In this document: piece by piece, positions 8,320-23,137 of the stretch | How the letters are laid out: each line of letters starts with the position of its first letter | Numbering within the stretch: position 1 is the stretch's first letter | Translations under genes and position numbers: made by a program | Notes under the pieces: model-generated | The model's input: only the letters and a program-made list of their open reading frames with translations | What the model was told of the DNA's origin: nothing | Databases searched by the model: none | From: Candidatus Rokubacteria bacterium 13_2_20CM_69_15_1 | GTDB taxonomy: Bacteria; Methylomirabilota; Methylomirabilia; Rokubacteriales; CSP1-6 | NCBI GenBank assembly: GCA_001914535.1 | Contig: MNCR01000003.1 | Span: 1-35,312, forward strand | Length of the DNA stretch: 35,312 nucleotides | Direction: 5' to 3'

Positions 8320-8751
8320 ATGCTCCGTTTCACCAAGCGCGCCGACTACGGCCTGATGGCGATTCATTATATTGCCGTCCACGACGATGTCGGGGCGGTG
8401 AGCGCCAAGCGGATTGCCGAGAAGTCCGGCATTCCGCCGGAGCTCCTCGCGAAGATCCTGCAACGTCTCGCGAAGCGGCGGCTGATTGTGAGTCAAAACG
8501 GGCCGAAGGGTGGGTACGTGCTCTCGCGCCACCCGGGCAAGATTACGGTGGGCGAGGTGATCCGGGCCCTGGAGGGACCCATCAGCATCGTGAGCTGTCT
8601 GGACCACGGAGGGTGTCCGCAGGAGCCGCGGTGTAGCCTGCGCCGACCGGTCCAGAAGCTCCAGGTGGCGATCACCCAGCTGCTCGACACGATGAGCCTG
8701 GCGGAGCTGACGAACGACAACGTTCCGGAACTTTTGTCGATCCGGGCGTGA
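8320..8751 (+). CDS. iscR: IscR, Rrf2-family [2Fe-2S] transcriptional regulator
   Basis: A 143-residue Rrf2-family regulator. The N-terminal winged helix-turn-helix is typical (MLRFTKRADYGLMAI, then SAKRIAEKSGIPPELLAKIL and the GPKGGYVLSR wing). The cluster ligands C93, C99 and C105 have the C-x5-C-x5-C spacing of E. coli IscR (C92, C98, C104), so it should bind a labile [2Fe-2S] cluster through these plus a His. It is the first gene of the isc operon and lies just downstream of an IscR type-1-like palindrome, which implies autoregulation according to Fe-S supply. Its stop is 14 bases before the iscS-like start. The assignment rests on family, ligands, operator and operon together. Confidence 0.93.
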   Translation: MLRFTKRADYGLMAIHYIAVHDDVGAVSAKRIAEKSGIPPELLAKILQRLAKRRLIVSQNGPKGGYVLSRHPGKITVGEVIRALEGPISIVSCLDHGGCPQEPRCSLRRPVQKLQVAITQLLDTMSLAELTNDNVPELLSIRA

Positions 8752-8765
8752 AGGAGACCGCGCCG

Positions 8766-9992
8766 ATGGCCCTGAAGTTTCCGATCTTCATGGACGCGCA
8801 ATCGACGACGCCGTGCGACCCGCGGGTCGTCGACGCGATGCTGCCCTACTTCGTCGAGAAGTTCGGCCATCCGGCGAGTCGGAACCATCCCTTCGGATGG
8901 GAGGCCGAGGGCGCCGTCGACGCCGCGCGGGCGAAGATCGCGCGCCTCATCAACGCGCGCGACCCCAAAGAAGTCGTGTTCACGTCGGGTGGCACCGAGG
9001 CGATCAACCTCGCGCTCAAGGGCGTCGCCGAGATGTACCGCGAGAAGGGCAATCACATCGTGACGACGGCGATCGAGCAGCGGGCGGGGCTCGACACCTG
9101 CAAGCGGCTCGAGCGTCTCGGGTTCGAGGTGACGTACGTTCCGGTCCAGCCGAACGGCCTCGTGGACGTGGACGACGTGAAGAAGGCGCTGACGGACAAG
9201 ACAATCCTCATCTCGGTCATGTTCGCGAACAACGAGATCGGCGCGATCCAGGACATCGCCGCGATCGGGAAGCTCGCGAAGGAGAAGGGGATCATCTTCC
9301 ACACCGACGCCACCCAGGCCACCGGCAAGATCCCGGTCGACGTCGAAAAGATGGGGATCGACCTGTTCTCGTGCACGGCGCACCTGATCTACGGGCCCAA
9401 GGGCGTCGGCGCGCTCTACGTTCGGCGCAAGGCGCCGCGCGTGCGGCTTGCGCCCATGATCGACGGCGGCGGGCACGAGCGCGGGATGCGCTCGGGGACC
9501 TTGCCGGTACCGCTCGTCGTGGGCTTCGGGCGGGCGGCGGAGATCTGCGAGGAGGTCATGCCGGAGGAGAGCGCACGGCTCGGCAAACTCCGCGACAGAC
9601 TCCAAGACGCGATCCTCGGGAGCGTGGACGAGGCATTCCTGAATGGCGATCCGGAGCGGCGCCTGCCGCACAACCTGAACATCTCGTTCGCGTACGTGGA
9701 GGGTGAGTCGGTCCTGATGGGGCTCAACAAGGAGACCGCGCTATCGTCCGGCTCGGCGTGCACGTCGTCCACCCTCGAACCGTCGTACGTGATCGCCGCG
9801 CTCGGCGCGAGCGCAGAGCTGGCGCATTCGTCGATCCGGTTCAGCCTCCACCGGTTCAACACCGAGGAGGAGGTGGAGTGGGTCGCCAAGCGTACGATCG
9901 AGGTCGTCAGGCGGCTTCGGGACATGTCGCCGCTCTACGAGTTGGCGAAGGAAGGTGTTGATATCAAGTCCATCCAGTGGAAGGCTGAGTAA
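8766..9992 (+). CDS. IscS-like protein lacking the PLP-binding lysine (probably no desulfurase activity)
   Basis: 408 residues from ATG 8766, with AAGGAG nine bases upstream; a GTG at 8748 is a weaker alternative. The sequence follows E. coli IscS throughout (NNEIGAIQDI, GGGHERGMRSGT, ELAHSSIRFSL, C-terminal DIKSIQW). However, the segment that reads SGHKIYGPKG in IscS is TAHLIYGPKG here: Leu207 replaces the Lys that forms the Schiff base with PLP. Gln105 also replaces the catalytic His104 (EQRAGLDTC against EHKAVLDTC). The persulfide-carrying Cys332 is retained (SSGSACTSS). Archaeoglobus fulgidus IscS, also lacking the PLP Lys, is reported to have no desulfurase activity and to donate a Cys ligand to a cluster on IscU. 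This protein may likewise be a structural or cluster-holding partner of IscU. An intact paralogue lies at 14815-15987. Confidence 0.88.
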   Translation: MALKFPIFMDAQSTTPCDPRVVDAMLPYFVEKFGHPASRNHPFGWEAEGAVDAARAKIARLINARDPKEVVFTSGGTEAINLALKGVAEMYREKGNHIVTTAIEQRAGLDTCKRLERLGFEVTYVPVQPNGLVDVDDVKKALTDKTILISVMFANNEIGAIQDIAAIGKLAKEKGIIFHTDATQATGKIPVDVEKMGIDLFSCTAHLIYGPKGVGALYVRRKAPRVRLAPMIDGGGHERGMRSGTLPVPLVVGFGRAAEICEEVMPEESARLGKLRDRLQDAILGSVDEAFLNGDPERRLPHNLNISFAYVEGESVLMGLNKETALSSGSACTSSTLEPSYVIAALGASAELAHSSIRFSLHRFNTEEEVEWVAKRTIEVVRRLRDMSPLYELAKEGVDIKSIQWKAE

Positions 9993-10004
9993 AGGGGGAC
10001 GGGG

Positions 10005-10418
10005 ATGGCGTACAGCGAGAAGGTCGTCGATCACTACAACAACCCACGCAACGTCGGGTCCTTCATGAAGGACACGCCGGGGGTCGGCACGGGTCTCGTC
10101 GGCGCGCCCGAGTGCGGCGACGTGATGAAGCTGCAGATCAAGGTGAACCTCCAGACCGGGGTCATCGAGGACGCGAAGTTCAAGACGTTCGGGTGTGGCA
10201 GCGCGATCGCGTCATCGAGCCTGGCCACCGAGTGGCTGAAGGGCAAGACGGTCGACGAGGCTGGCAAGATCAAGAATACCGACATCGTGAACGAGCTGAA
10301 GCTCCCGCCCGTCAAGATCCACTGCTCGGTGCTCGCCGAGGACGCGATCAAGGCGGCGCTGGCGGACTACAAGACGAAGTGGATCAAGGAGGGCGCGGCC
10401 GCCGCGTCCTCGACGTAA
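10005..10418 (+). CDS. iscU: IscU, Fe-S cluster assembly scaffold
   Basis: A 137-residue IscU. The three cluster ligands are present: C37 in APECGDVM, C64 in TFGCGSA and C107 in KIHCSVLAEDAI. The Asp39 that promotes cluster release and the His before the third Cys are also kept. The LPPVK motif recognised by HscA directly precedes that His, so chaperone-driven cluster transfer should work. It accepts iron and sulfur, assembles [2Fe-2S] clusters and passes them to carriers. The gene starts 12 bases after the IscS-like gene and has a GGGG-rich ribosome site. The canonical ligands here contrast with the altered IscU/NifU-like protein at 15984. Confidence 0.96.
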   Translation: MAYSEKVVDHYNNPRNVGSFMKDTPGVGTGLVGAPECGDVMKLQIKVNLQTGVIEDAKFKTFGCGSAIASSSLATEWLKGKTVDEAGKIKNTDIVNELKLPPVKIHCSVLAEDAIKAALADYKTKWIKEGAAAASST

Positions 10419-10434
10419 GGGACTGGGGAGCCGT

Positions 10435-10764
10435 ATGGCGGTGACGCTGACCGAAGCCGCGGCCAATCAGGTGAAGGAGCTCAAGCGGGCCCAGAGCCTG
10501 CCCGACACCGTCTTCTTGAGGATGGGCGTCAAGGGTGGGGGGTGTTCGGGGCTCTCGTATTCGCTGGAGTTCGACAGCGAGATCGGGCCGCACGACAAAG
10601 AGTTCGAGCTCGACGGCATCAAGGTCGTCGTGGACAAGAAGAGCTACCTGTACCTCAACGGCACGACACTCGACTACGTGCAGCAGGGGTTGACGGGGGG
10701 GTTCACGTTCCTGAACCCCAGCGCGAAGTCGAGCTGTGGATGCGGCACGTCGTTCTCGGCGTAG
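10435..10764 (+). CDS. iscA: IscA/ErpA-type A-type Fe-S carrier
   Basis: A 109-residue HesB/IscA family protein with the three conserved cysteines C37 (GGGCSGLSY), C101 and C103 (SCGCGTSF). These bind a cluster or iron at the dimer interface and hand it to target apoproteins. It follows iscU by 16 bases and has GGGGAG before the ATG. It could be called IscA by position or ErpA by sequence; the window alone does not distinguish them. A strong terminator-like hairpin follows within the operon. Confidence 0.93.
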   Translation: MAVTLTEAAANQVKELKRAQSLPDTVFLRMGVKGGGCSGLSYSLEFDSEIGPHDKEFELDGIKVVVDKKSYLYLNGTTLDYVQQGLTGGFTFLNPSAKSSCGCGTSFSA

Positions 10765-10785
10765 CCGGGTCGGCCGAACCACCAA

Positions 10786-10818
10786 GAACGGGCCCGGCGG
10801 AGGGCCCGTTCCTATTTT
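10786..10818 (+). terminator. Terminator-like hairpin inside the isc operon
   Basis: GAACGGGCCC (10786-10795) pairs perfectly with GGGCCCGTTC (10802-10811) around a 6-base loop and is followed by CTATTTT. This is a good factor-independent terminator between iscA and hscB. It would reduce expression of hscB-hscA-fdx-iscX relative to iscR-S-U-A, unless an unseen promoter serves the second half. Confidence 0.75.
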
Positions 10819-10847
10819 GACAGGGTGAGCGGGAGGGCGTGAGCGGG

Positions 10848-11438
10848 ATGGACCACTTCCAGGTGTTCGGGTTGCCGCGGCGGCTCGCCATCGACACGGT
10901 GGAGCTGCAGCGGAAGTTCTACGAGCTGTCTCGGCTCCACCACCCGGACTTCCACCAGGCGGCGTCGCCGGAGGAGCAGGCGCGGACGCTCGAGGCCTCG
11001 GCGAGGTTGAACACCGCGTACCGCGCCCTCCGGGATCCGATCGCACGCGTCGAGTACCTCGTCCGCCTCGAGGAGGGCCGTGACACGAAGGAGGGCGCTA
11101 CGGTCAAGCCCAAGGCGCCGCCCGAGCTGCTGGAGGAGATGTTCGAGATCCAGGAGGCGCTCGCGGAGGCGAAGGTGGGTGGCCTCGACGAGGCCGGCCG
11201 CGCCGCGCTCGTCGCCCCGCGCGATCGTCTGATGGTCCGGTTGGAGCAGGAGAACGCCCGGCTCGTGGGGCCTCTCACCCAGGGGTGGGATGCCGCCGCG
11301 CCGGCGGAGCGGCAGCGCGTGCTCGCCGCCATGAAGGAAGCGTTGGCGACGCGCGCGTACCTCGGCACGGTGATCGACGACCTGAACGACGCCCTCGGGG
11401 AAAGCCTGGAAGGCTATGTCACGCATCGTCGGCATTGA
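10848..11438 (+). CDS. hscB: HscB, J-domain co-chaperone of Fe-S assembly
   Basis: 196 residues from ATG 10848, with GGGAGGG about ten bases upstream; GTG 10839 is a three-residue longer alternative. The N-terminal J-domain begins DHFQVFGLPRRLAID and contains the HPD triad at 32-34 that stimulates Hsp70 ATPase. The C-terminal helical part (EEMFEIQEALAEAK and onward) is the IscU-binding domain of HscB. There is no N-terminal zinc-finger extension. It delivers IscU to HscA. The hscA start lies 23 bases inside this gene, so the two are probably translated together. Confidence 0.93.
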   Translation: MDHFQVFGLPRRLAIDTVELQRKFYELSRLHHPDFHQAASPEEQARTLEASARLNTAYRALRDPIARVEYLVRLEEGRDTKEGATVKPKAPPELLEEMFEIQEALAEAKVGGLDEAGRAALVAPRDRLMVRLEQENARLVGPLTQGWDAAAPAERQRVLAAMKEALATRAYLGTVIDDLNDALGESLEGYVTHRRH

Positions 11439-13248
11439 TCTCGGGACCACCAACAGTCTCGTCGCGTACGTCGACGAGAAGACGGGTCTCCCGAGGGTGA
11501 TCCCCGACCAGGAGGGGCGTGTGCTCCTGCCGTCGGTGGTGTCGTTCACGACTGAGGGCGTGGTGGTCGGCGAGGCGGCGAAGCGGCTGCTCGTGCGGCG
11601 GCCGGCCACGACCGTCTACTCCGTCAAGCGGCTCATGGGGCGAGGGTACGAGGACGTCAAGGAGGAGCTCTGCTACCTCCCCTTCAAGGTTGCTCCGTGC
11701 GATGGGATCGTGAAGATCCAGATCGGGGACCGCGAGGTAACGCCGCCCGAGGTGTCGGCGATCGTGCTGAGATCGCTCAAGGAGCGCGCCGAGGCTCACT
11801 TCAGGGAGCCGATCGAGAAGGCCGTCATCACGGTCCCGGCGTATTTCAACGACAGCCAGCGCCAGGCGACGAAGGACGCCGGACGGATCGCCGGCCTCGA
11901 TGTCGTGCGCATCGTCAACGAGCCGACCGCGGCGTCGCTCGCCTATGGGCTCCATCGACTCAAAGAGGGTGTCATCGCCGTGTACGACCTCGGCGGCGGG
12001 ACCTTCGACATCTCGATCCTGCGTGTGAAGGACGGCGTGTTCGAGGTGCTCGCGACCAACGGCAACACGCACCTCGGCGGCGATGACTTCGACCGTGCGA
12101 TCGTCGTCTGGCTCCTGGACGACATCCTCTCCGAGCACGGCGTCTATCTCGGGCGCGACACCGAGGCGATGCAGGAGCTGCGCTTGGCAGCCGAGGCGGC
12201 CAAGGTTCGCCTGTCCGCGGAGGACCGGACGACGCTCACGATCCCGTTCGAGGAGTTTACGTACCGCCGCGCGATCACGCGTGCCGAGCTCGAAGGGCTG
12301 ATCGAAAAGCTCGTCGACGCCACGCTCGGACCGTGCCGGATGGCGATCGCCGACGCGGGCGTGGCGCCGTCGGACATCGATGAGGTCGTCCTGGTCGGCG
12401 GCTCGACGCGCGTGCCACTCCTCCGCCGCCGCGTCCAGGAGCTGTTCGCGAAGACGCCGCACAGCCAACTCAACCCCGACGAGGTCGTCGCGCTCGGCGC
12501 CGCGGTCCAGGCGCACATCCTGGCGGGTGGGATCACGAGCATGCTGCTCCTTGACGTGACGCCGCTGTCGCTCGGGATCGAGACGCTCGGCGGCATCGTG
12601 AGCGTGCTGATCCCACGCAATACGACGATCCCGACGAGCGCGCGGGAGATGTTCACGACGTCGGTGGACGGGCAGACCATCGTCGACCTGCACGTGGTCC
12701 AGGGCGAGCGCGAGCTCGCCAAGGACTGCCGCTCCCTCGCGCGCTTCGAGCTGTCCGGGATCGACCCGATGCCGGCGGGGATGCCGAAGATCGAGGTCAC
12801 ATTCCTCATCGACGCCAACGGCATCCTGCAGGCCCAGGCGAAAGAGCTCCGGACTGGGAAGGCCACGGCGATCGAGGTGAAGCCGACGTACGGGCTCTCG
12901 GAGACCGAGGTCGAGCGGATGGTGGAGGAGTCGTTCGCGTATGCGGAGGCCGACGTCGAGGCGCGGCTCCTGATCGAGACGCGCAACGAGGCGGACACGG
13001 TGATCACCCACGTCGAGCGTGCCCTGCGCCAGGGAGGCGAGCTCGTGCCAGTCGAGGAGCGGGAGGCGATCCGGGAGGCGCTCGAGGAGCTTCGGCGAGC
13101 GCGCGCTGGCGACGACCGGGGGCGGATCCGCGATACCACCGCGGCCCTGAACCGTGCGACGGAGCACCTCGCGGACGTGATGATGGACGCGGCGCTCAAG
13201 GCGGCGCTCGGCAGCAAGCGTGCGGCGGAAATCATGGAGTCGGACTAA
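11416..13248 (+). CDS. hscA: HscA, Hsp70-type chaperone of Fe-S assembly
   Basis: A 610-residue Hsp70 of the specialised HscA class. The nucleotide-binding domain starts VGIDLGTTNSLVAYVD and includes VITVPAYFNDSQRQAT, the phosphate loop VYDLGGGTFDISIL and VVLVGGSTRVPLL. The substrate-binding beta domain (about 380-500) begins LLLDVTPLSLGIETLGG. Length and gene neighbours (HscB before, ferredoxin after) separate it from DnaK. It binds the LPPVK motif of IscU and uses ATP to drive cluster transfer. The ATG is preceded by GGAAGG and overlaps the end of hscB. Its stop overlaps the fdx start (TAATG). Confidence 0.95.
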   Translation: MSRIVGIDLGTTNSLVAYVDEKTGLPRVIPDQEGRVLLPSVVSFTTEGVVVGEAAKRLLVRRPATTVYSVKRLMGRGYEDVKEELCYLPFKVAPCDGIVKIQIGDREVTPPEVSAIVLRSLKERAEAHFREPIEKAVITVPAYFNDSQRQATKDAGRIAGLDVVRIVNEPTAASLAYGLHRLKEGVIAVYDLGGGTFDISILRVKDGVFEVLATNGNTHLGGDDFDRAIVVWLLDDILSEHGVYLGRDTEAMQELRLAAEAAKVRLSAEDRTTLTIPFEEFTYRRAITRAELEGLIEKLVDATLGPCRMAIADAGVAPSDIDEVVLVGGSTRVPLLRRRVQELFAKTPHSQLNPDEVVALGAAVQAHILAGGITSMLLLDVTPLSLGIETLGGIVSVLIPRNTTIPTSAREMFTTSVDGQTIVDLHVVQGERELAKDCRSLARFELSGIDPMPAGMPKIEVTFLIDANGILQAQAKELRTGKATAIEVKPTYGLSETEVERMVEESFAYAEADVEARLLIETRNEADTVITHVERALRQGGELVPVEEREAIREALEELRRARAGDDRGRIRDTTAALNRATEHLADVMMDAALKAALGSKRAAEIMESD

Positions 13249-13571
13249 TGGCGGTCCACAAGATCACCTTCCTGCCGATGAACGTCACGGTGGAAGTGGA
13301 CGACGCGAAATACCCGCTCGCCGATCATGGCAAGCCCGGGTCGCTCCTCGACATCGCGCTCGCCCACGACATCCCGCTCGAGCACAACTGCGGTGGCAGC
13401 TGTGCGTGCACCACGTGCCACGTCGTCGTCCGAGAGGGCGAGGAGAACCTCTCTGAAATGCAGGCCGACGAGGAGGACCGTCTGGACATGGCCGAGGGGC
13501 TGACGATCCACTCGCGGCTCGGCTGCCAGGCGGTCGTGCGCGGGAACGTGATCGTGGAGATCCCGGAGTGA
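13248..13571 (+). CDS. fdx: ISC-type [2Fe-2S] ferredoxin
   Basis: A 107-residue adrenodoxin-type ferredoxin. Ligands C48, C54 and C57 (CGGSCACTTC, with an additional C52) and C93 (RLGCQAV) bind the [2Fe-2S] cluster. It supplies electrons for sulfur reduction or reductive coupling of clusters on IscU. It is translationally coupled to hscA (TAATG) and its last bases overlap the iscX start. An acidic helix (MQADEEDRLDMAEG) typical of partner recognition is present. Confidence 0.95.
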   Translation: MAVHKITFLPMNVTVEVDDAKYPLADHGKPGSLLDIALAHDIPLEHNCGGSCACTTCHVVVREGEENLSEMQADEEDRLDMAEGLTIHSRLGCQAVVRGNVIVEIPE

Positions 13572-13771
13572 TCACATGGCGGGACACCGAGGACATCGCG
13601 ATCGCGCTCGCCGAGCGCTTTCCCGACCTCGACCCGTTGACCGTGCGGTTCACGGATCTCCACAAGTGGGTGACGGAGCTGGCGGAGTTCTCGGACGATC
13701 CGAAGGGGTCCAGCGAGAAGACGCTTGAGTCCATTCAGATGGCGTGGCTCGACGAGTACCGAAACCGATGA
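13568..13771 (+). CDS. iscX: IscX, small Fe-S assembly regulator
   Basis: A 67-residue acidic protein matching IscX: MITWRDTEDIAIALAERFPD, DPLTVRFTDLHKWV and the terminal IQMAWLDEY are all typical. In E. coli IscX binds iron and sits on IscS at the site shared with frataxin and ferredoxin, where it tunes desulfurase activity. The GTG start overlaps the fdx stop. Its retention in an operon whose IscS seems catalytically dead is odd. It may act on the intact desulfurase encoded nearby, or on the complex structure. Confidence 0.95.
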   Translation: MITWRDTEDIAIALAERFPDLDPLTVRFTDLHKWVTELAEFSDDPKGSSEKTLESIQMAWLDEYRNR

Positions 13772-13824
13772 GCGTGACCGGCCGGGCCTCCGCCCGCACC
13801 CGTATCGCCATCGAGCCGGCGCGC

Positions 13825-14049
13825 CTACCAGGTCAGGACTTGGTCGGCTTGGAAGATGAGGTCGAGGAGCTGGGTATAAGAGAGATCGCTGCCGACGCGA
13901 CGCAGCGTCACGCCGGGCGGCAGCGCGGGCGCGGCGCCGCCGGGCAGGAGGGCGACGGTGACGCGGTCGCCGGCATCGACGTGCTGCTCGATGACCGTAC
14001 GCGCGAGGGCGGCGTCGGCGCTCTTGATCAGGTGCAGGACCGTGGGCAT
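13825..14049 (-). CDS. DsrH/TusB-like sulfur relay protein
   Basis: A 74-residue protein starting MPTVLHLIKSADA and ending in LIFQADQVLTW. The LHLIKS beginning and the terminal Val-x-x-Trp are features of DsrH/TusB. The family usually has about 95 residues, so this is a short member, and it has no Cys. In TusBCD or DsrEFH hexamers this subunit has a structural or docking role. The ATG overlaps the stop of the DsrF-like gene (ATGA), making it the last gene of a three-gene minus-strand unit that converges on iscX. Confidence 0.72.
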   Translation of the reverse strand: MPTVLHLIKSADAALARTVIEQHVDAGDRVTVALLPGGAAPALPPGVTLRRVGSDLSYTQLLDLIFQADQVLTW

Positions 14050-14462
14050 CAGAACGCCAGGAAGCGTCGGCCCTGTCGCACGAGCTCCGCGATCCGCTCT
14101 CGCGTGATCGGAACGACCTCGTGGCGGTCGGCGTTCCAGTCGGTGTCCGACGGGATTGCGTCCGCCTCGACGTGGAAGGGGATGCCGAGCGCCCTGAGAT
14201 TCGCGCGGAACCTGGCGATATCGTCACCGTCCACGAGCTCGTCGGTGTCGGCGTCGAGCAGGTGCACGCCCGGGCCCGTGAGCACGAAGGTCACGTCGTT
14301 CTCGCCCGCGACGACGCCGAGCCCGATGCGCATGGCCTCGTTCGCGCGATGCGAGCGGCGCGGATCGGCCGAGATCAGGACGACGACCGGCGCAGTGTCG
14401 GGCACGGACCCGGCCTCGCCCGACACGCCGGCTCCGCCCGACACGCCGGCTCCGCCAGACAC
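14049..14462 (-). CDS. DsrE/DsrF-family protein (second gene of a relay-like trio)
   Basis: Up to 137 residues from GTG 14462; GTG codons within the following repeats or at VPDTAP are equally possible starts, so the Gly/Ala/Ser-rich N-terminus is uncertain. The folded part begins VVVLISADPRRSHRANEAMRI and continues with VTFVLTGPGVHLLD, the alternating strands and helices of a DsrE/DsrF fold. No Cys is present, so it cannot itself carry persulfide and is more like the DsrF/TusC position. It lies directly after the DsrE-like gene and overlaps the DsrH-like gene. Confidence 0.65.
   Translation of the reverse strand: MSGGAGVSGGAGVSGEAGSVPDTAPVVVLISADPRRSHRANEAMRIGLGVVAGENDVTFVLTGPGVHLLDADTDELVDGDDIARFRANLRALGIPFHVEADAIPSDTDWNADRHEVVPITRERIAELVRQGRRFLAF
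14421..14456. repeat. Two perfect 18-bp tandem repeats
   Basis: CGACACGCCGGCTCCGCC occurs at 14421-14438 and 14439-14456, and a degenerate third unit (AGACACG) follows. On the minus strand it encodes repeats of Gly-Gly-Ala-Gly-Val-Ser at the start of the DsrF-like gene. Each unit carries an in-frame GTG, giving several alternative start codons. Slippage could change copy number without breaking frame. Confidence 0.85.
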
Positions 14463-14463
14463 G

Positions 14464-14787
14464 TCAGTTGAGCGCGATGAAGCGCTCGGTGCCGTTGAGC
14501 AGGTCGGTGAGCACGACCAGACCACAGTAGGTGAGGCGGTCGGAGTCGCGCAGCGGGATCCCGCGCTTCTGGCAGCCGTACGCGCACACGAACATCTTCG
14601 CGCCGCGCTCGGGCAAGGCACGAATGCGTGGATCGTCGAGCGCGCGCACGCCCTCGTCGATGAGGTAGAGATACACGTCGGCGCCACGGTCGAGCGCCGT
14701 CTGCGTGAGCGCGACGGCAGTCTCGAGATTGGGATGCTCGAGCCCCGTGGACAGGAGCACGCCGAGTCTTTTCTTCGTGAGATCCAT
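14464..14787 (-). CDS. DsrE/TusD-like sulfur relay protein with conserved Cys
   Basis: 107 residues from ATG 14787 (MDLTKKRLGVLLSTGLEHPN). It has the DsrE fold, with a cysteine-containing loop MFVCAYGCQKRGI (C68 and C72) where DsrE/TusD carries its active-site persulfide Cys, then LTYCGLVVLTDLLN. It is the first gene of the minus-strand trio and the only member with candidate sulfur-carrying Cys residues. Only 27 bases separate it from the divergent desulfurase gene at 14815, which suggests a shared control region and a common role in moving sulfur. Peroxiredoxin-like DsrE relatives are the alternative. Confidence 0.75.
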   Translation of the reverse strand: MDLTKKRLGVLLSTGLEHPNLETAVALTQTALDRGADVYLYLIDEGVRALDDPRIRALPERGAKMFVCAYGCQKRGIPLRDSDRLTYCGLVVLTDLLNGTERFIALN

Positions 14788-14814
14788 CGCGAGTCGAGCG
14801 TAGCATCGTGAGAA

Positions 14815-15987
14815 ATGGAGAGCAACCGAATGAACCGTCGCGTGTACCTCGATCACAACGCGTCGACCCCGATCCACCCCGAGGTCCTTGCCGAGATGCT
14901 CCCGTACTTCTCGGAGGTCTTCGGGAACCCCTCCAGCATCCACACGTTCGGCCGCGACGCGCGGGAAGGCGTCGAGCGCGCGCGCGAGCGCGTGGCGCGC
15001 TTCCTGGGCGTCTCGCCGCAAGAAGTCGTGTTCACCTCGGGCGGGACGGAGTCGGACAACTTCGGGGTGAAGGGGCTGGCGTACGGACGCGGCAAGGGGC
15101 ACCTCATCACATCGAGCGTCGAGCACCACGCCGTGCTCCGAGCGTGCCAGGCGCTCGAGGCGCAGGGATTCGACGTCACCTACGTCGGCGTTGACGAGTA
15201 TGGGATAGTCGATCCGGACGACGTCCGCCGCGCCATCCGACCCGACACGATCGCCATCAGCATCATGCACGCCAACAGCGAGGTGGGGTCGCTTCAGCCG
15301 ATCACGGCGATCGGTCGCATCGCGCGCGAGCATGGGGTCCCGCTCCACGTCGACGCTGTCCAGACCTTTGGCAAGATCGCCATCGACCTCGACGCCTTCG
15401 GGATCGACGCGTTGTCCTTCTCGGGTCACAAGATCTACGGACCCAAGGGCGTCGCCGGCCTCTGGATCCGCAAGGGCACTCGCATGGTCGCGATCCAGCA
15501 CGGCGGCGAGCACGAGCGGCGGCGCCGGGCGGGCACGGAGAACGTACCGGGTATCGTCGGCCTCGGCAAGGCAGCGGAGATACGGGGCCGTGACATGCAC
15601 GCGGAGGCCGAGCGCCTGACCGTGCTGCGGAACCGCCTGATCGACGGCGTCCGCGACCGCGTGCCCGACGTGCGGCTCTCCGGCCACCCGACCGAGCGGC
15701 TGCCCGGGACCGCGAGCCTCCTCTTCCGACATGTCGAGTCGGAATCCATCGTACTCGGGCTCGATCTCAAGGGCATCGGCGTGTCGGCCGGGTCGGCGTG
15801 CACGTCGGGCAACGTGGAGCTGTCGCACGTGCTCGTGGCGATGGGCGTCCCGCTCGACTGGGCGATCGGCGCCGTTCGCTGCTCGCTAGGCTGCTCGACG
15901 ACGGCGGAGGACATCGAGTACGTGATCGAGTGCATCGAGCCGCTCGTAAGGAAGCTCCGGCAGGCCATGCCGGCCGGCGTCGCATGA
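14815..15987 (+). CDS. Cysteine desulfurase, NifS/IscS class, catalytically intact
   Basis: 390 residues from ATG 14815; an in-frame ATG at 14830 (MNRRVYLDH) is an equally good start. This PLP enzyme takes sulfur from cysteine, giving alanine and an enzyme persulfide. The catalytic set is complete: H104 in VEHHAVL, K206 in SGHKIYGPKG for PLP, and the loop Cys C329 in SAGSACTSG. It has the class I NifS/IscS pattern (YLDHNASTPIHPEV, GGEHERRRRAGTEN). The stop overlaps the scaffold gene that follows (ATGA), and serine acetyltransferase comes next. It is likely the true sulfur source for both scaffolds, because the isc-operon paralogue has lost its lysine. Confidence 0.93.
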   Translation: MESNRMNRRVYLDHNASTPIHPEVLAEMLPYFSEVFGNPSSIHTFGRDAREGVERARERVARFLGVSPQEVVFTSGGTESDNFGVKGLAYGRGKGHLITSSVEHHAVLRACQALEAQGFDVTYVGVDEYGIVDPDDVRRAIRPDTIAISIMHANSEVGSLQPITAIGRIAREHGVPLHVDAVQTFGKIAIDLDAFGIDALSFSGHKIYGPKGVAGLWIRKGTRMVAIQHGGEHERRRRAGTENVPGIVGLGKAAEIRGRDMHAEAERLTVLRNRLIDGVRDRVPDVRLSGHPTERLPGTASLLFRHVESESIVLGLDLKGIGVSAGSACTSGNVELSHVLVAMGVPLDWAIGAVRCSLGCSTTAEDIEYVIECIEPLVRKLRQAMPAGVA

Positions 15988-19696: not shown

Positions 19697-20686
19697 GTGG
19701 GACTCCCTCTCACGGGACACGTCTCGGTCGACGACTCCGCCCGCCTGATCCGCAACTACCGCTACGCCGTCGAGCGCGCGATGCGGGCGCTGGGCGGCTG
19801 GATCGCACTCACGCCCGATGTGTCCGCAAAGCTTCTGATGGGTCGTCACGTCTGGGACCTCGCCCAGCACGCGGAGGCCTTCGGCAAGCGGCTGCCGGAG
19901 CTACGCGCCCCCGCCCAGGTCTCGGAGCCGGCGAACGAGCGCGTCGTCGCCTTCATGGACGCTCTCGAGGAGCCAGAGACGCCTCAGCAGACCGTGGAGC
20001 GGCTCGTCGGCGTGTACCGGGTCCTCAAGCCGCACCTCCGGGCGAGCTACCACGACTATCTGCTGCGGGCCAATGCCGTCTACGAGCCACCGACGCGGCG
20101 GATCCTCTCACGCTGCATCGACGATGAGCGACGCCACATCGTGGCGGGAGAGACGATCATCGGCCACCTCTGCGCCACACCCGCGCTCACGGCGCGTGCG
20201 CTCGCCTGGCAACGGAGGCTCGAGAGACTGCTCGCGGCGGCCGGCGGGGTGACCGGCGACGGGCTGCCGCCCAGTCCGCCCGGCGCCGGCGACGCGCCCA
20301 TGGAAATGAGTGATGACGCGCGCGAGTTCATCCGCCTCGAAGCGCCCATGGCGAGTTGGCCGGTCCCGCAGGACCTGCGCGACGCCCTCGACTCCTTGGG
20401 TAGTTCGCTGCTCGCGCGGAACCGGGCAGCGCTCGCGCGCTGGCTCGCGGCGGGAGTCTCTCCCGACCCCGTGTGCCTCGCGCTCGGTGCGGCGACACTG
20501 ACGAGCCATCGCCTTGTCGCGATCGCGCGGCTGGGACATCAGCGCCTCGTGAAGTGGAGACTCGAGGGGCCGGACGCGTCCGTCACGGTCCTCGGCCGAT
20601 GGGTACCAGGGCCAGAGGGCTGGCGCGTCGTCACGCTCGACGTCGCCCGGATCGAGCTGCCCGGTCTCGCAGAGCCGCGTCGCTGA
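19697..20686 (+). CDS. Second ferritin-like protein with extra C-terminal domain
   Basis: 329 residues from GTG 19697, three bases after the previous stop. The N-terminal 180 residues are helical, with metal-type motifs RHVWDLAQHAEAFGKRL and CIDDERRHIVAGE, consistent with a divergent ferritin-like domain. A Gly/Pro-rich linker (about 190-205, PPSPPGAGD) leads to a C-terminal part that I do not recognise; it ends in beta-like segments (HQRLVKWRLEG, GWRVVTLDVARIEL) resembling a small beta domain. It is probably a partner of the preceding protein. Confidence 0.65.
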   Translation: MGLPLTGHVSVDDSARLIRNYRYAVERAMRALGGWIALTPDVSAKLLMGRHVWDLAQHAEAFGKRLPELRAPAQVSEPANERVVAFMDALEEPETPQQTVERLVGVYRVLKPHLRASYHDYLLRANAVYEPPTRRILSRCIDDERRHIVAGETIIGHLCATPALTARALAWQRRLERLLAAAGGVTGDGLPPSPPGAGDAPMEMSDDAREFIRLEAPMASWPVPQDLRDALDSLGSSLLARNRAALARWLAAGVSPDPVCLALGAATLTSHRLVAIARLGHQRLVKWRLEGPDASVTVLGRWVPGPEGWRVVTLDVARIELPGLAEPRR

Positions 20687-20720
20687 TCCGCACGGGTCGC
20701 CGGTCGGGGAGCGATCGCGC

Positions 20721-20798
20721 GACGAGATGAACACGCGGCTCCAGGTGGAGCATACGGTGACCGCGGAGGTCTCCGAACAAGGAGCGTTCTATGGCTGA
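20721..20798 (+). pseudogene. Remnant of a biotin carboxylase gene
   Basis: The frame from 20721 reads DEMNTRLQVEHTVTAEVSEQ, then stops at TGA 20796-20798. EMNTRLQVEH is the highly conserved active-site motif of acetyl-CoA/propionyl-CoA carboxylase biotin carboxylase subunits. Nothing recognisable of the enzyme remains before it. The fragment lies directly in front of, and overlapping, a biotin-carrier gene, which suggests deletion of a former carboxylase gene. A chance match of this length is unlikely. Confidence 0.75.
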
Positions 20799-21006
20799 GG
20801 AGCTCAAGGCTCACATCACGGGGGTGGTGTTCCAGATCGCCGCGAAGCCCGGCGACCGGGTCGCCGCTGGCGACGCGGTCATCATCCTCGAGTCCATGAA
20901 GATGGAGATTCCCGTGGAGGCGCCGCGAGCGGGTGCGGTCAAGGCGATCAAGGTCCACGAGGGTCAGACCGTTCAGGAGGGAGACGTCGTCGCCGTGCTG
21001 GAGTGA
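20791..21006 (+). CDS. Stand-alone biotin carboxyl carrier protein-like domain
   Basis: A 71-residue single biotinyl/lipoyl-type domain with ESMKMEIPV (K37), the site biotinylated in carboxyl carrier proteins, and the second half-repeat GQTVQEGDVVAVLE. AAGGAG precedes the ATG by six bases. The ESMKME form is common in short stand-alone carriers. No biotin carboxylase or carboxyltransferase is intact nearby; only a remnant of a biotin carboxylase lies upstream. It may serve an enzyme encoded elsewhere, or be a leftover. The DinB-family gene follows after ten bases. Confidence 0.88.
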   Translation: MAEELKAHITGVVFQIAAKPGDRVAAGDAVIILESMKMEIPVEAPRAGAVKAIKVHEGQTVQEGDVVAVLE

Positions 21007-21016
21007 GGAGGACGTG

Positions 21017-21520
21017 ATGGGCCTCGAGATGATCCGAGGGTTGTACGGTTATCACCGATGGGCGAACCGGCGGCTCTTCGACGTCGCCACGGGGCTCGGC
21101 GAGGATCTCGCATCGCGCGACGTCGGCAAAGCCTTCAGCTTCCCGACCGTCAGGCGGATGTTCGGGCACCTCTACGGGGCGGACTGGATCTGGCTCTCGC
21201 GCTGGACGGGAGTCTCGCCCGCGAAGCTCCCGGGCGCCGAATTCCCGACGCTCCCCTCCATTCGGATTGCGTGGGACAGCCTCGAACGAGAGCAGCAGGC
21301 CTTCGTCGAGGGGCTCACTCCAGGCGACCTCGCGCGGGTGATCGAATACAAGAACACCGACGGCAAGCCGTTCAGACTGACGCTCTGGCCGCTGCTTCAG
21401 CACGTGCCGAACCACGCGACCCACCACCGCAGCGAGATCGCTACGATGATCACGATGCTCAGCGGCTCGCCGCCGGACACGGGCATCAATACCTACCTCC
21501 TGCAGCAGACCGGACAGTGA
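21017..21520 (+). CDS. DinB/YfiT-family metal-binding protein
   Basis: 167 residues from ATG 21017, preceded by GAGGAGG; GTG 21014 adds one residue. The DinB four-helix bundle is recognised from the start (MIRGLYGYHRWANRRLFD), the metal ligand helix HLYGADWIWLSRW and the C-terminal HATHHRSEI, which supplies two or three His for a divalent metal. Family members include bacillithiol-type thiol transferases and DNA-damage-induced proteins of unknown role. It is the last gene of this plus-strand unit and converges with rpoD. Confidence 0.88.
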   Translation: MGLEMIRGLYGYHRWANRRLFDVATGLGEDLASRDVGKAFSFPTVRRMFGHLYGADWIWLSRWTGVSPAKLPGAEFPTLPSIRIAWDSLEREQQAFVEGLTPGDLARVIEYKNTDGKPFRLTLWPLLQHVPNHATHHRSEIATMITMLSGSPPDTGINTYLLQQTGQ

Positions 21521-21643: not shown

Positions 21644-23137
21644 CTAATTCTCGACGAAGGCGCGGAGGTTGCGGCCGCGCAGCGGGTGGCGCAGCTTCCT
21701 GAGCGCCTTGGCCTCGATCTGCCGAATGCGCTCACGGGTGACCGCGAAACGCTTGCCGACCTCCTCGAGGGTGTGCTCGCCCTCTTCGCCAATGCCGAAC
21801 CGGAGACGCAGAATCTCCTTCTCCTTCGGCGACAGCGTGGACAGGGCCCGCTCGATCTGCGTCGTCAGATCCTGGTTGAGGAGCGAGTCGTTGGGCGAGC
21901 CGGCGGACTTGTCCTCGAGGAAATCGCCGAGCTCGGAGTCTTCACCGATCGGCGTCTCGAGCGACAGCGGCTTGCGCGACGACTCGAGGATGAGTCGGAC
22001 CTTCTTCGACGGGACGCCCGTGCGTTGAGCGAGCTCCTCCGGCGTCGGCTCGCGCCCGATCTCGTTGACCATGTTCCGGTTCACGCGCGAGATGCGGTTG
22101 AGCGTCTCCACCATGTGGACCGGGATCCGGATCGTCCGCGAGTGGTCGGCGATCGCCCGGGTGATGGCCTGGCGGATCCACCACGTCGCGTACGTCGAGA
22201 ACTTGAAGCCGCGGCGGTACTGGAACCGGTCGACGGCCTTCATGAGCCCGATGTTGCCTTCCTGGACGAGGTCGAGCAACGTCAGGTCACTGCCCAGGTA
22301 GCGCTTGGCGACCGAGACGACCAATCGAAGATTCGCCTCCATCAGCTCGCGCTTGGCCTGGCGCACGGTGCGGTCGCTCCGCTCGATCTGCTCGAGGAAC
22401 TGGCTGAGCTGGCGGCGCGGCAGGCCGACCTCCTTCTGGAGCTCGGAGAGCTCGCGGGCGGCGGCGGTCCGGTTCCGCCGAGCCTCTTCGGCGAGCTGGC
22501 CGATGCGCTCCCAGCGCCGGCGGACTTGCGCCACGATGTCGTCGATCAACGCCGGCTTGAGGGGCATGTCGGCGACGACCTTTTGGATCTTTTCGCGAGC
22601 CGCCGCGATCGTCTTGCCTCGGCTGGCGCGGCTCGTCTTCGACTGTCGCTTGTCTCGGAGCGAACCATTGAGCTGGGCGATCTTCCGCTCGAGCCTCCGA
22701 AGTCGCCCGAACGCCAGCAGCACCGGCCGCAGCTCCTTGGCGTCCAGCTCGCCGCCCTCGGCCAGGACGATGACGTCGTCGGCGGGGATCTCGCCGCGGC
22801 GAAGCTTGTCGCCCACTTCGAGAAGCGTCGTGACGGCCACCGGGATGCCGGCCAGCGTACGCCGGAGGGCGATCTGGCCAACCTCGATGCGCCGGCCGAT
22901 CTGCACCTCTTGGGCGGCCGTCAGCAGGGGGACTTTGCCGATCTCTTTGAGGTAAAGACGAACCGGGTCCTCGCCGCGCGGAGACGCGCCGGCCTCGACT
23001 GGCTCTGGCCGCGGGGTCTCCTCGGCTTCCTCTTCGAGGGCGACCCGCGTCTCAGGCTCCTCAGCGGTAGTAAGCCCGCCCGGAGCCACGGCCGTGATGC
23101 TGGGTTCCGCGTCGCGGGCAGTTTCTCTGAATGTCAT
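21644..23137 (-). CDS. rpoD: RNA polymerase sigma factor, RpoD (sigma-70 group 1-like)
   Basis: 497 residues on the minus strand. After an acidic, Pro/Glu-rich N-terminus comes region 1.2 ([16 protein letters not shown], about 57-72) and a variable non-conserved region. Region 2 follows ([47 protein letters not shown]), then region 3 ([14 protein letters not shown]) and region 4 ([29 protein letters not shown]). It recognises housekeeping promoters. Region 1.1 is poorly conserved, so a group 2 factor is a possible alternative. AGGAG lies ten bases before the ATG. A lower-GC 577-base region upstream probably contains its promoter. Confidence 0.93.

Follow-up and report, generated by a model that had tools for sequence, protein, structure and literature searches.

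Positions 20683–20798 of the window (the whole 35 312-nucleotide stretch analysed here) are very probably what remains of a biotin carboxylase (BC) gene that was once functional and supplied the BC subunit at an acyl-CoA carboxylase locus; the locus has no carboxyltransferase (CT), and its intact biotin carrier is most likely served in trans. The window is contig C116 of a metagenome assembly of 2.8 Mb in 146 contigs, listed as 75.86% complete. The frame DEMNTRLQVEHTVTAEVSEQGAFYG, closed by a stop codon, occupies 20721–20798, and its stop overlaps the start of the carrier gene (ATG at 20791) by 8 nt. The original prediction of a BC motif remnant that stands before an orphan carrier and ends inside the start of its gene was borne out. 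A degenerate pattern of the motif (44 nt, up to three mismatches) matched once in the window and in 0 of 100 dinucleotide-preserving shuffles, and chance similarity was thereby ruled out. The likeness to BC extends over residues 289–305 at an 82% amino-acid match (E = 1.3e-4). The final eight codons of the frame (SEQGAFYG, then the stop) are also of BC origin and match the C-terminus of the protein in relatives, which ends in (V/I)EQGAFNG.

Lesion coordinates were taken from a strict alignment to G003, a genome of the same genus; with nearly free gaps the pieces scatter over the whole gene. Window 20621–20692, comprising the end of the upstream gene ferr2 and the start of BC, aligned at 55/72 positions. 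It is followed by 5 missing nucleotides, by 20693–20721, by 815 missing nucleotides, by 20722–20773, by 411 missing nucleotides and by 20774 onward. The 5′ piece of the gene (20683–20721, forward strand) begins with CTG in place of the TTG that is the presumed start codon in G001–G003 and runs into the VANRGEIARR region, which carries the 5-nt deletion; after a stretch common to both genomes it was aligned to positions −1324 to −1296 of G003 (21/29). Shuffled sequences scored as high in 2/2000 cases against G003, 2/2000 against G002 and 40/2000 against G001, where the best placement is elsewhere in the gene and breaks into unconvincing bits under strict alignment. Being short and weak and lacking a convincing alignment to G001, the 5′ piece is the part of the remnant with the weakest evidence. 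The middle piece EMNTRLQVEHTVTAEV (20722–20773, forward strand; 46/52 to G003) belongs to a conserved catalytic stretch of biotin carboxylases and contains the substitutions P to T and E to A at two positions that are P and E in nearly all of the 40 BC rows compared. The 3′ end of the gene (EQGAFYG and the stop; 20774–20798, forward strand) was aligned together with the carrier start (20774–20820) at 43/47 to G003.

The lesions (the 815-, 411- and 5-nt deletions and the change of TTG to CTG) leave no functional BC possible. About 26 codons had been expected to survive one large internal deletion that spared the carrier. These codons are present and the carrier is intact, but the codons consist of the motif piece plus the last codons of the gene itself, the weaker 5′ piece lies further upstream, and the erosion of the gene took two or more large deletions as well as small lesions, with its end preserved.

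A full-length BC was found at this place in relatives. G003 encodes an uninterrupted protein of 449 amino acids with the three BC domains, which ends in VEQGAFDG and a stop across the carrier start and has the same neighbours as far as the contig reaches. Its score falls below the cut-off of the accC equivalog model TIGR00514 (586.2 versus 626.5 bits) and exceeds that of the broader model NF006367 (607.2 versus 597 bits). In all, 57 genomes of the family were searched and the carrier was recovered at E up to 1e-22 in 51; G025, which has a run of N at the junction, is not among these 51. An uninterrupted BC adjoins the carrier in 37 of the 51 genomes with a complete carrier; in the remaining 14, BC is intact at a distance of 3.7 kb from the carrier (G005, locus L045), is cut by a contig end (G075) or is broken or gone (12 genomes). 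A search for a complete AccC or PccA elsewhere in the window genome (G000) returned a single BC match, a paralogue on contig C54 that is 52% identical to the G003-type protein; no other copy of the local orthologue was present in this 75.86%-complete assembly. The genomes of G001–G003 measure about 4.1–4.6 Mb.

The gene order DUF455 gene, ferr2, BC or its remains, carrier, DinB-family gene and, on the opposite strand, a sigma-70 family gene is common to the window and G001–G003 as far as the contigs reach. The gene labelled ferr2 by us (19697–20686, forward strand, 329 amino acids) has a stop that overlaps the presumed old BC start, and it directly precedes BC or the carrier in most relatives compared. 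Pfam and NCBIfam gave no match to it (E up to 0.001); to the preceding DUF455 gene it shows a weak likeness (about 22.8%, E about 3e-4). The DinB-family gene (21017–21520, forward strand) was assigned by Pfam PF05163 and synteny; CT lies behind it in many relatives and is absent here. The sigma-70 family gene that closes the locus (21644–23137, reverse strand) scores above the cut-off of TIGR02937 and served as a marker for synteny and for the tree; its best score to RpoD models falls below their cut-offs. Further upstream, window 8320–15987 holds a run of iron–sulfur assembly genes (Rrf2 regulator, IscS-like class-V aminotransferase, NifU_N, Fe-S_biosyn, HscB-like DnaJ, HSP70 and Fer2 ferredoxin) that includes a second class-V aminotransferase at 14815–15987; behind the run stands a frame judged by eye to be IscU-like.

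Erosion of BC recurs in the genus and the family. Among the four genomes of the genus only G003 has an intact gene. What G002 retains is the 5′ piece, the 3′ tail and, from a different region of the gene, an island of 29 nt (28/29). That of G001 is nearly full length and contains a one-base insertion relative to G003 that shifts the frame. Its substitutions include E88K, K117E and N291T, at residues that we take to be the counterparts of E87, K116 and N290 in E. coli AccC, and six of 132 positions invariant in 38 other proteins are changed, versus none in G003. Leave-one-out controls gave counts of 0 to 7 (7/139 for G011, 5/137 for G012), so that G001 is no outlier by number and the case for its inactivation lies in the frameshift and in which residues changed.

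The 12 of 51 genomes in which BC is broken or gone are G000, G001, G002, G014, G018, G019, G022, G023, G029, G074, G076 and G079. Remains are clear in eight of them; G014, G019 and G022 keep about eight tail codons and G023 nothing clear. A broken copy is still in place in G001 and G018. In the latter, two parts of BC lie in different frames, a break that may be a sequencing error; G018 was counted among the 12 broken genes and as kept in the tree and in the Shine–Dalgarno count. In nine of the ten genomes with a carrier and no BC in place, the best BC matches elsewhere, among those listed, reach only 52–58% identity (G079 aside). Relocation of BC or CT was rejected: among the matches listed, no orthologue was found elsewhere in genomes that lack a local copy (G079 aside for BC; E up to 1e-150 for CT). 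At two loci, L170 and L190 (in G076 and G029), a permease-like gene (judged by eye; ending in LLGHEFKERV and a stop) stands directly before the BC tail in place of ferr2; the same ending is also found before the carrier in G036, which belongs to another family.

A tree was built from the sigma and carrier proteins of 49 genomes, ten of them labelled as having lost BC (G019 was left out as it had no sigma match). The kept and lost labels require at least seven state changes. The tree alone cannot separate loss from gain, and it is the BC remains that identify the changes as losses. A single loss common to G000, G001 and G002 may have occurred, since the branch that joins G000 and G003 has a support of only 72.

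An orthologue of CT was found in 27 of the 57 genomes; 26 of these show 74–100% identity, and in G011 the gene is partial and lies at the edge of a contig. It adjoins a complete carrier in 26 of 51 genomes; contig C153 of G024 carries a partial carrier and CT. Orthologues (74% or more) occur only at this locus, and other CT matches do not exceed 49% (among the matches listed, E up to 1e-150). Among the 51 loci, those with an intact BC have CT in 21 cases, lack it in 14 and are of unknown CT state in two; the corresponding numbers for lost BC are three, six and two. Of the rest, G005 and G018 (the latter with its BC marked 'frameshift?') have CT and G075 does not. BC and CT are thus missing in every combination while the carrier stays. 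No linked loss of BC and CT appeared in six independent pairs (CT changed in the same direction in 1.9 on average, median p = 0.5). A BC or CT outlasting the carrier was not seen on an assembled locus in the 57 genomes; G060 has BC without the carrier, but its contig ends there.

As CT lies downstream in 26 of the 51 loci, the ancestral locus probably encoded the whole acyl-CoA carboxylase (BC, carrier and CT), in what would have been the order DUF455 gene, ferr2, BC, carrier, DinB-family gene and CT. In the proposed course of events the locus in this lineage would have come to lack CT, and BC would have been eroded by the two large deletions, the 5-nt deletion and the presumed start-codon change.

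The carrier (20791–21006, forward strand, 71 amino acids) contains the biotinylation motif ESMKMEIP and scores above the curated cut-off of PF00364 (69.5 versus 22.1 bits) and above that of NF004547, 'biotin/lipoyl-binding carrier protein' (89.3 versus 75 bits). Its closest named relatives come from Candidatus Rokuibacteriota genomes. The dN/dS values, rough because the gene is short, were 0.094–0.153 in five pairs of genomes without BC, 0.167–0.235 in three pairs of a genome without and one with intact BC, and 0.04–0.43 in seven intact pairs. The pair G029–G076 (dN/dS 0.10, dS 0.32) has the same permease-like gene before the BC tail and therefore probably diverged after BC had been lost.

The carrier would still be made and biotinylated, and its partners are most likely BC and CT enzymes whose genes lie elsewhere: the AccC on C54 would charge it and an unlinked carboxyltransferase would use it. 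The C54 protein, the one BC of the window genome, scores above the cut-off of the accC model TIGR00514 (669.9 versus 626.5 bits); about 1.3 kb from its gene is that of a carrier above the cut-off of the BCCP model (117.6 versus 115.2 bits). CT-family matches number 5, 6, 5 and 5 in G000, G001, G002 and G003, and PF03099, which does not separate biotin from lipoyl ligases, matched once in G000 and twice in each other genome of the genus. A second small carrier (frames of 76–83 amino acids) was noted on contigs C27 of G001, C60 of G002 and C175 of G003, beside a BC in G001 and G002; it had no match in the incomplete window genome.

The strongest competing explanation holds that the carrier functions independently of any biotin carboxylase or is simply being lost in its turn. 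The carrier does outlast both BC and CT, and outside the phylum 42 of 52 fetched relatives have neither in the fetched stretch (some stretches being short), so that standing alone seems common for this type of carrier. Against a BC-independent role, the biotinylation lysine in MKM is present in 55/55 aligned carriers, of which three come from other families and one is partial; this is consistent with use in carboxylation, and decay is disfavoured by the low dN/dS of G029 and G076, which probably share one loss; the explanation is accordingly considered unlikely, though it deserves more weight than those below. Beyond trans partners for this one protein, we tentatively suggest, at somewhat less than even chances, that it is a shared general-purpose biotin carrier maintained by selection independently of its operon, whose BC and CT are lost again and again; Rokubacterial acyl-CoA carboxylases would then be assembled from unlinked, interchangeable BC, carrier and CT components, or the carrier would have a job other than carboxylation.

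The remnant might instead be an assembly artefact in which reads were joined through the conserved BC motif and the gene was dropped. The draft state of this metagenome assembly and the position of the surviving island among the most conserved stretches of BC would suit such a join. It is made very improbable by the ordered pieces, which carry substitutions where nearly all of the relatives compared are conserved, and by different lesions at the same place in G002 (228-kb contig) and G014 (356-kb contig); the distinct deletion in G002 argues against an assembly join at this point.

The Shine–Dalgarno sequence of the carrier, AAGGAG (20779–20784, forward strand), lies inside the last BC codons (EQGAF), 6 nt before the ATG. 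All 51 family carriers with a complete start have a site containing GGAG, at a distance of 6 nt except in three genomes with 8 or 9. These were divided into 40 loci with BC kept (G018 included) and 11 with BC lost. In 36 of the 40 the site falls within a frame whose end resembles the BC tail and overlaps the start of the carrier, and in G004, G005, G018 and G035 it is outside BC. A similar short tail with its stop remains in ten of the 11 and is lacking in G023. The position and conservation of the site suggest that the 3′ end of BC survived because its last codons hold the ribosome-binding site of the carrier. Deletions that removed the site would silence the carrier, and selection on it would thus have fixed the 3′ breakpoint.

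The 23-codon frame at 20727–20798 could also be read as encoding a leader peptide whose function is translational coupling to the carrier. It has an ATG start, is open throughout and overlaps the carrier by 8 nt, as the full BC does in several relatives; as a peptide this frame is absent from the 29 other loci compared and from the other eroded loci, and the BC pieces of G002 and G079 lie in different frames. A dedicated leader peptide is therefore scarcely credible, and the frame may couple translation by accident.

By itself the 48-nt motif does not identify its source gene, because the paralogue on C54 matches it at 40/48, which is also the median value for 42 local orthologues. That the motif was copied in from this paralogue by templated repair is nevertheless extremely improbable, since it sits between the 5′ and 3′ pieces of BC in the right order and at the orthologous place, the best local orthologues reach 45/48 (G003 44/48) and other eroded loci (G002, G079) hold islands from different parts of BC.

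Parallels with known systems were drawn from portions of the published accounts. Intergenic spacers of Buchnera contain pseudogenes that decay while functional elements are kept (PMC3164680, in part). As in those spacers, the remains of the gene are recognizable here, relatives have a full-length orthologue and the Shine–Dalgarno sequence is conserved; unlike in Buchnera, as described in that portion, it is placed within the final codons of the gene that was lost, and the genomes of the relatives are not of the obligate-symbiont type. The biotin/lipoyl attachment protein of Bacillus subtilis (yngHB) is a small stand-alone carrier that is biotinylated by BirA in vitro; the part of the account used here goes no further than to suggest that it serves some biotin enzyme as carrier (PMC4016012). 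The likeness, which was drawn without sequence comparison, extends to small size and stand-alone form; the neighbours of yngHB are annotated as carboxylase subunits, whereas here the adjacent BC is destroyed and the locus has no CT. Precedent for trans partners comes from AccA3 in mycobacteria (PMC4064979, in part) and from AccA1/AccA2 in Streptomyces (PMC13118682, in part), biotin-bearing subunits that serve several carboxyltransferases; in these BC and carrier form one protein, whereas here the carrier is a separate gene. TB7.3, likened without sequence comparison, resembles the window carrier as a very small single-domain carrier. It is presumably covered by NF004547/PRK05889. Rv3221c is called 'putative' in the part of the literature consulted. 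No description of the present locus was found among the titles and abstract starts listed from the open-licence literature. Gene erosion and the sharing of carboxylase subunits are already known, and the locus itself is a new example.

The locus thus represents ordinary gene decay, yet provides a useful natural experiment on orphan biotin carriers. It suggests how a ribosome-binding site that overlaps a dying gene may determine which of its ends is kept. Across the family the carrier occurs beside both BC and CT, beside either of them alone or beside neither, and selection on it looks alike in each case; the presence of all four contexts makes possible a direct test of which BC and CT serve the orphan carrier.
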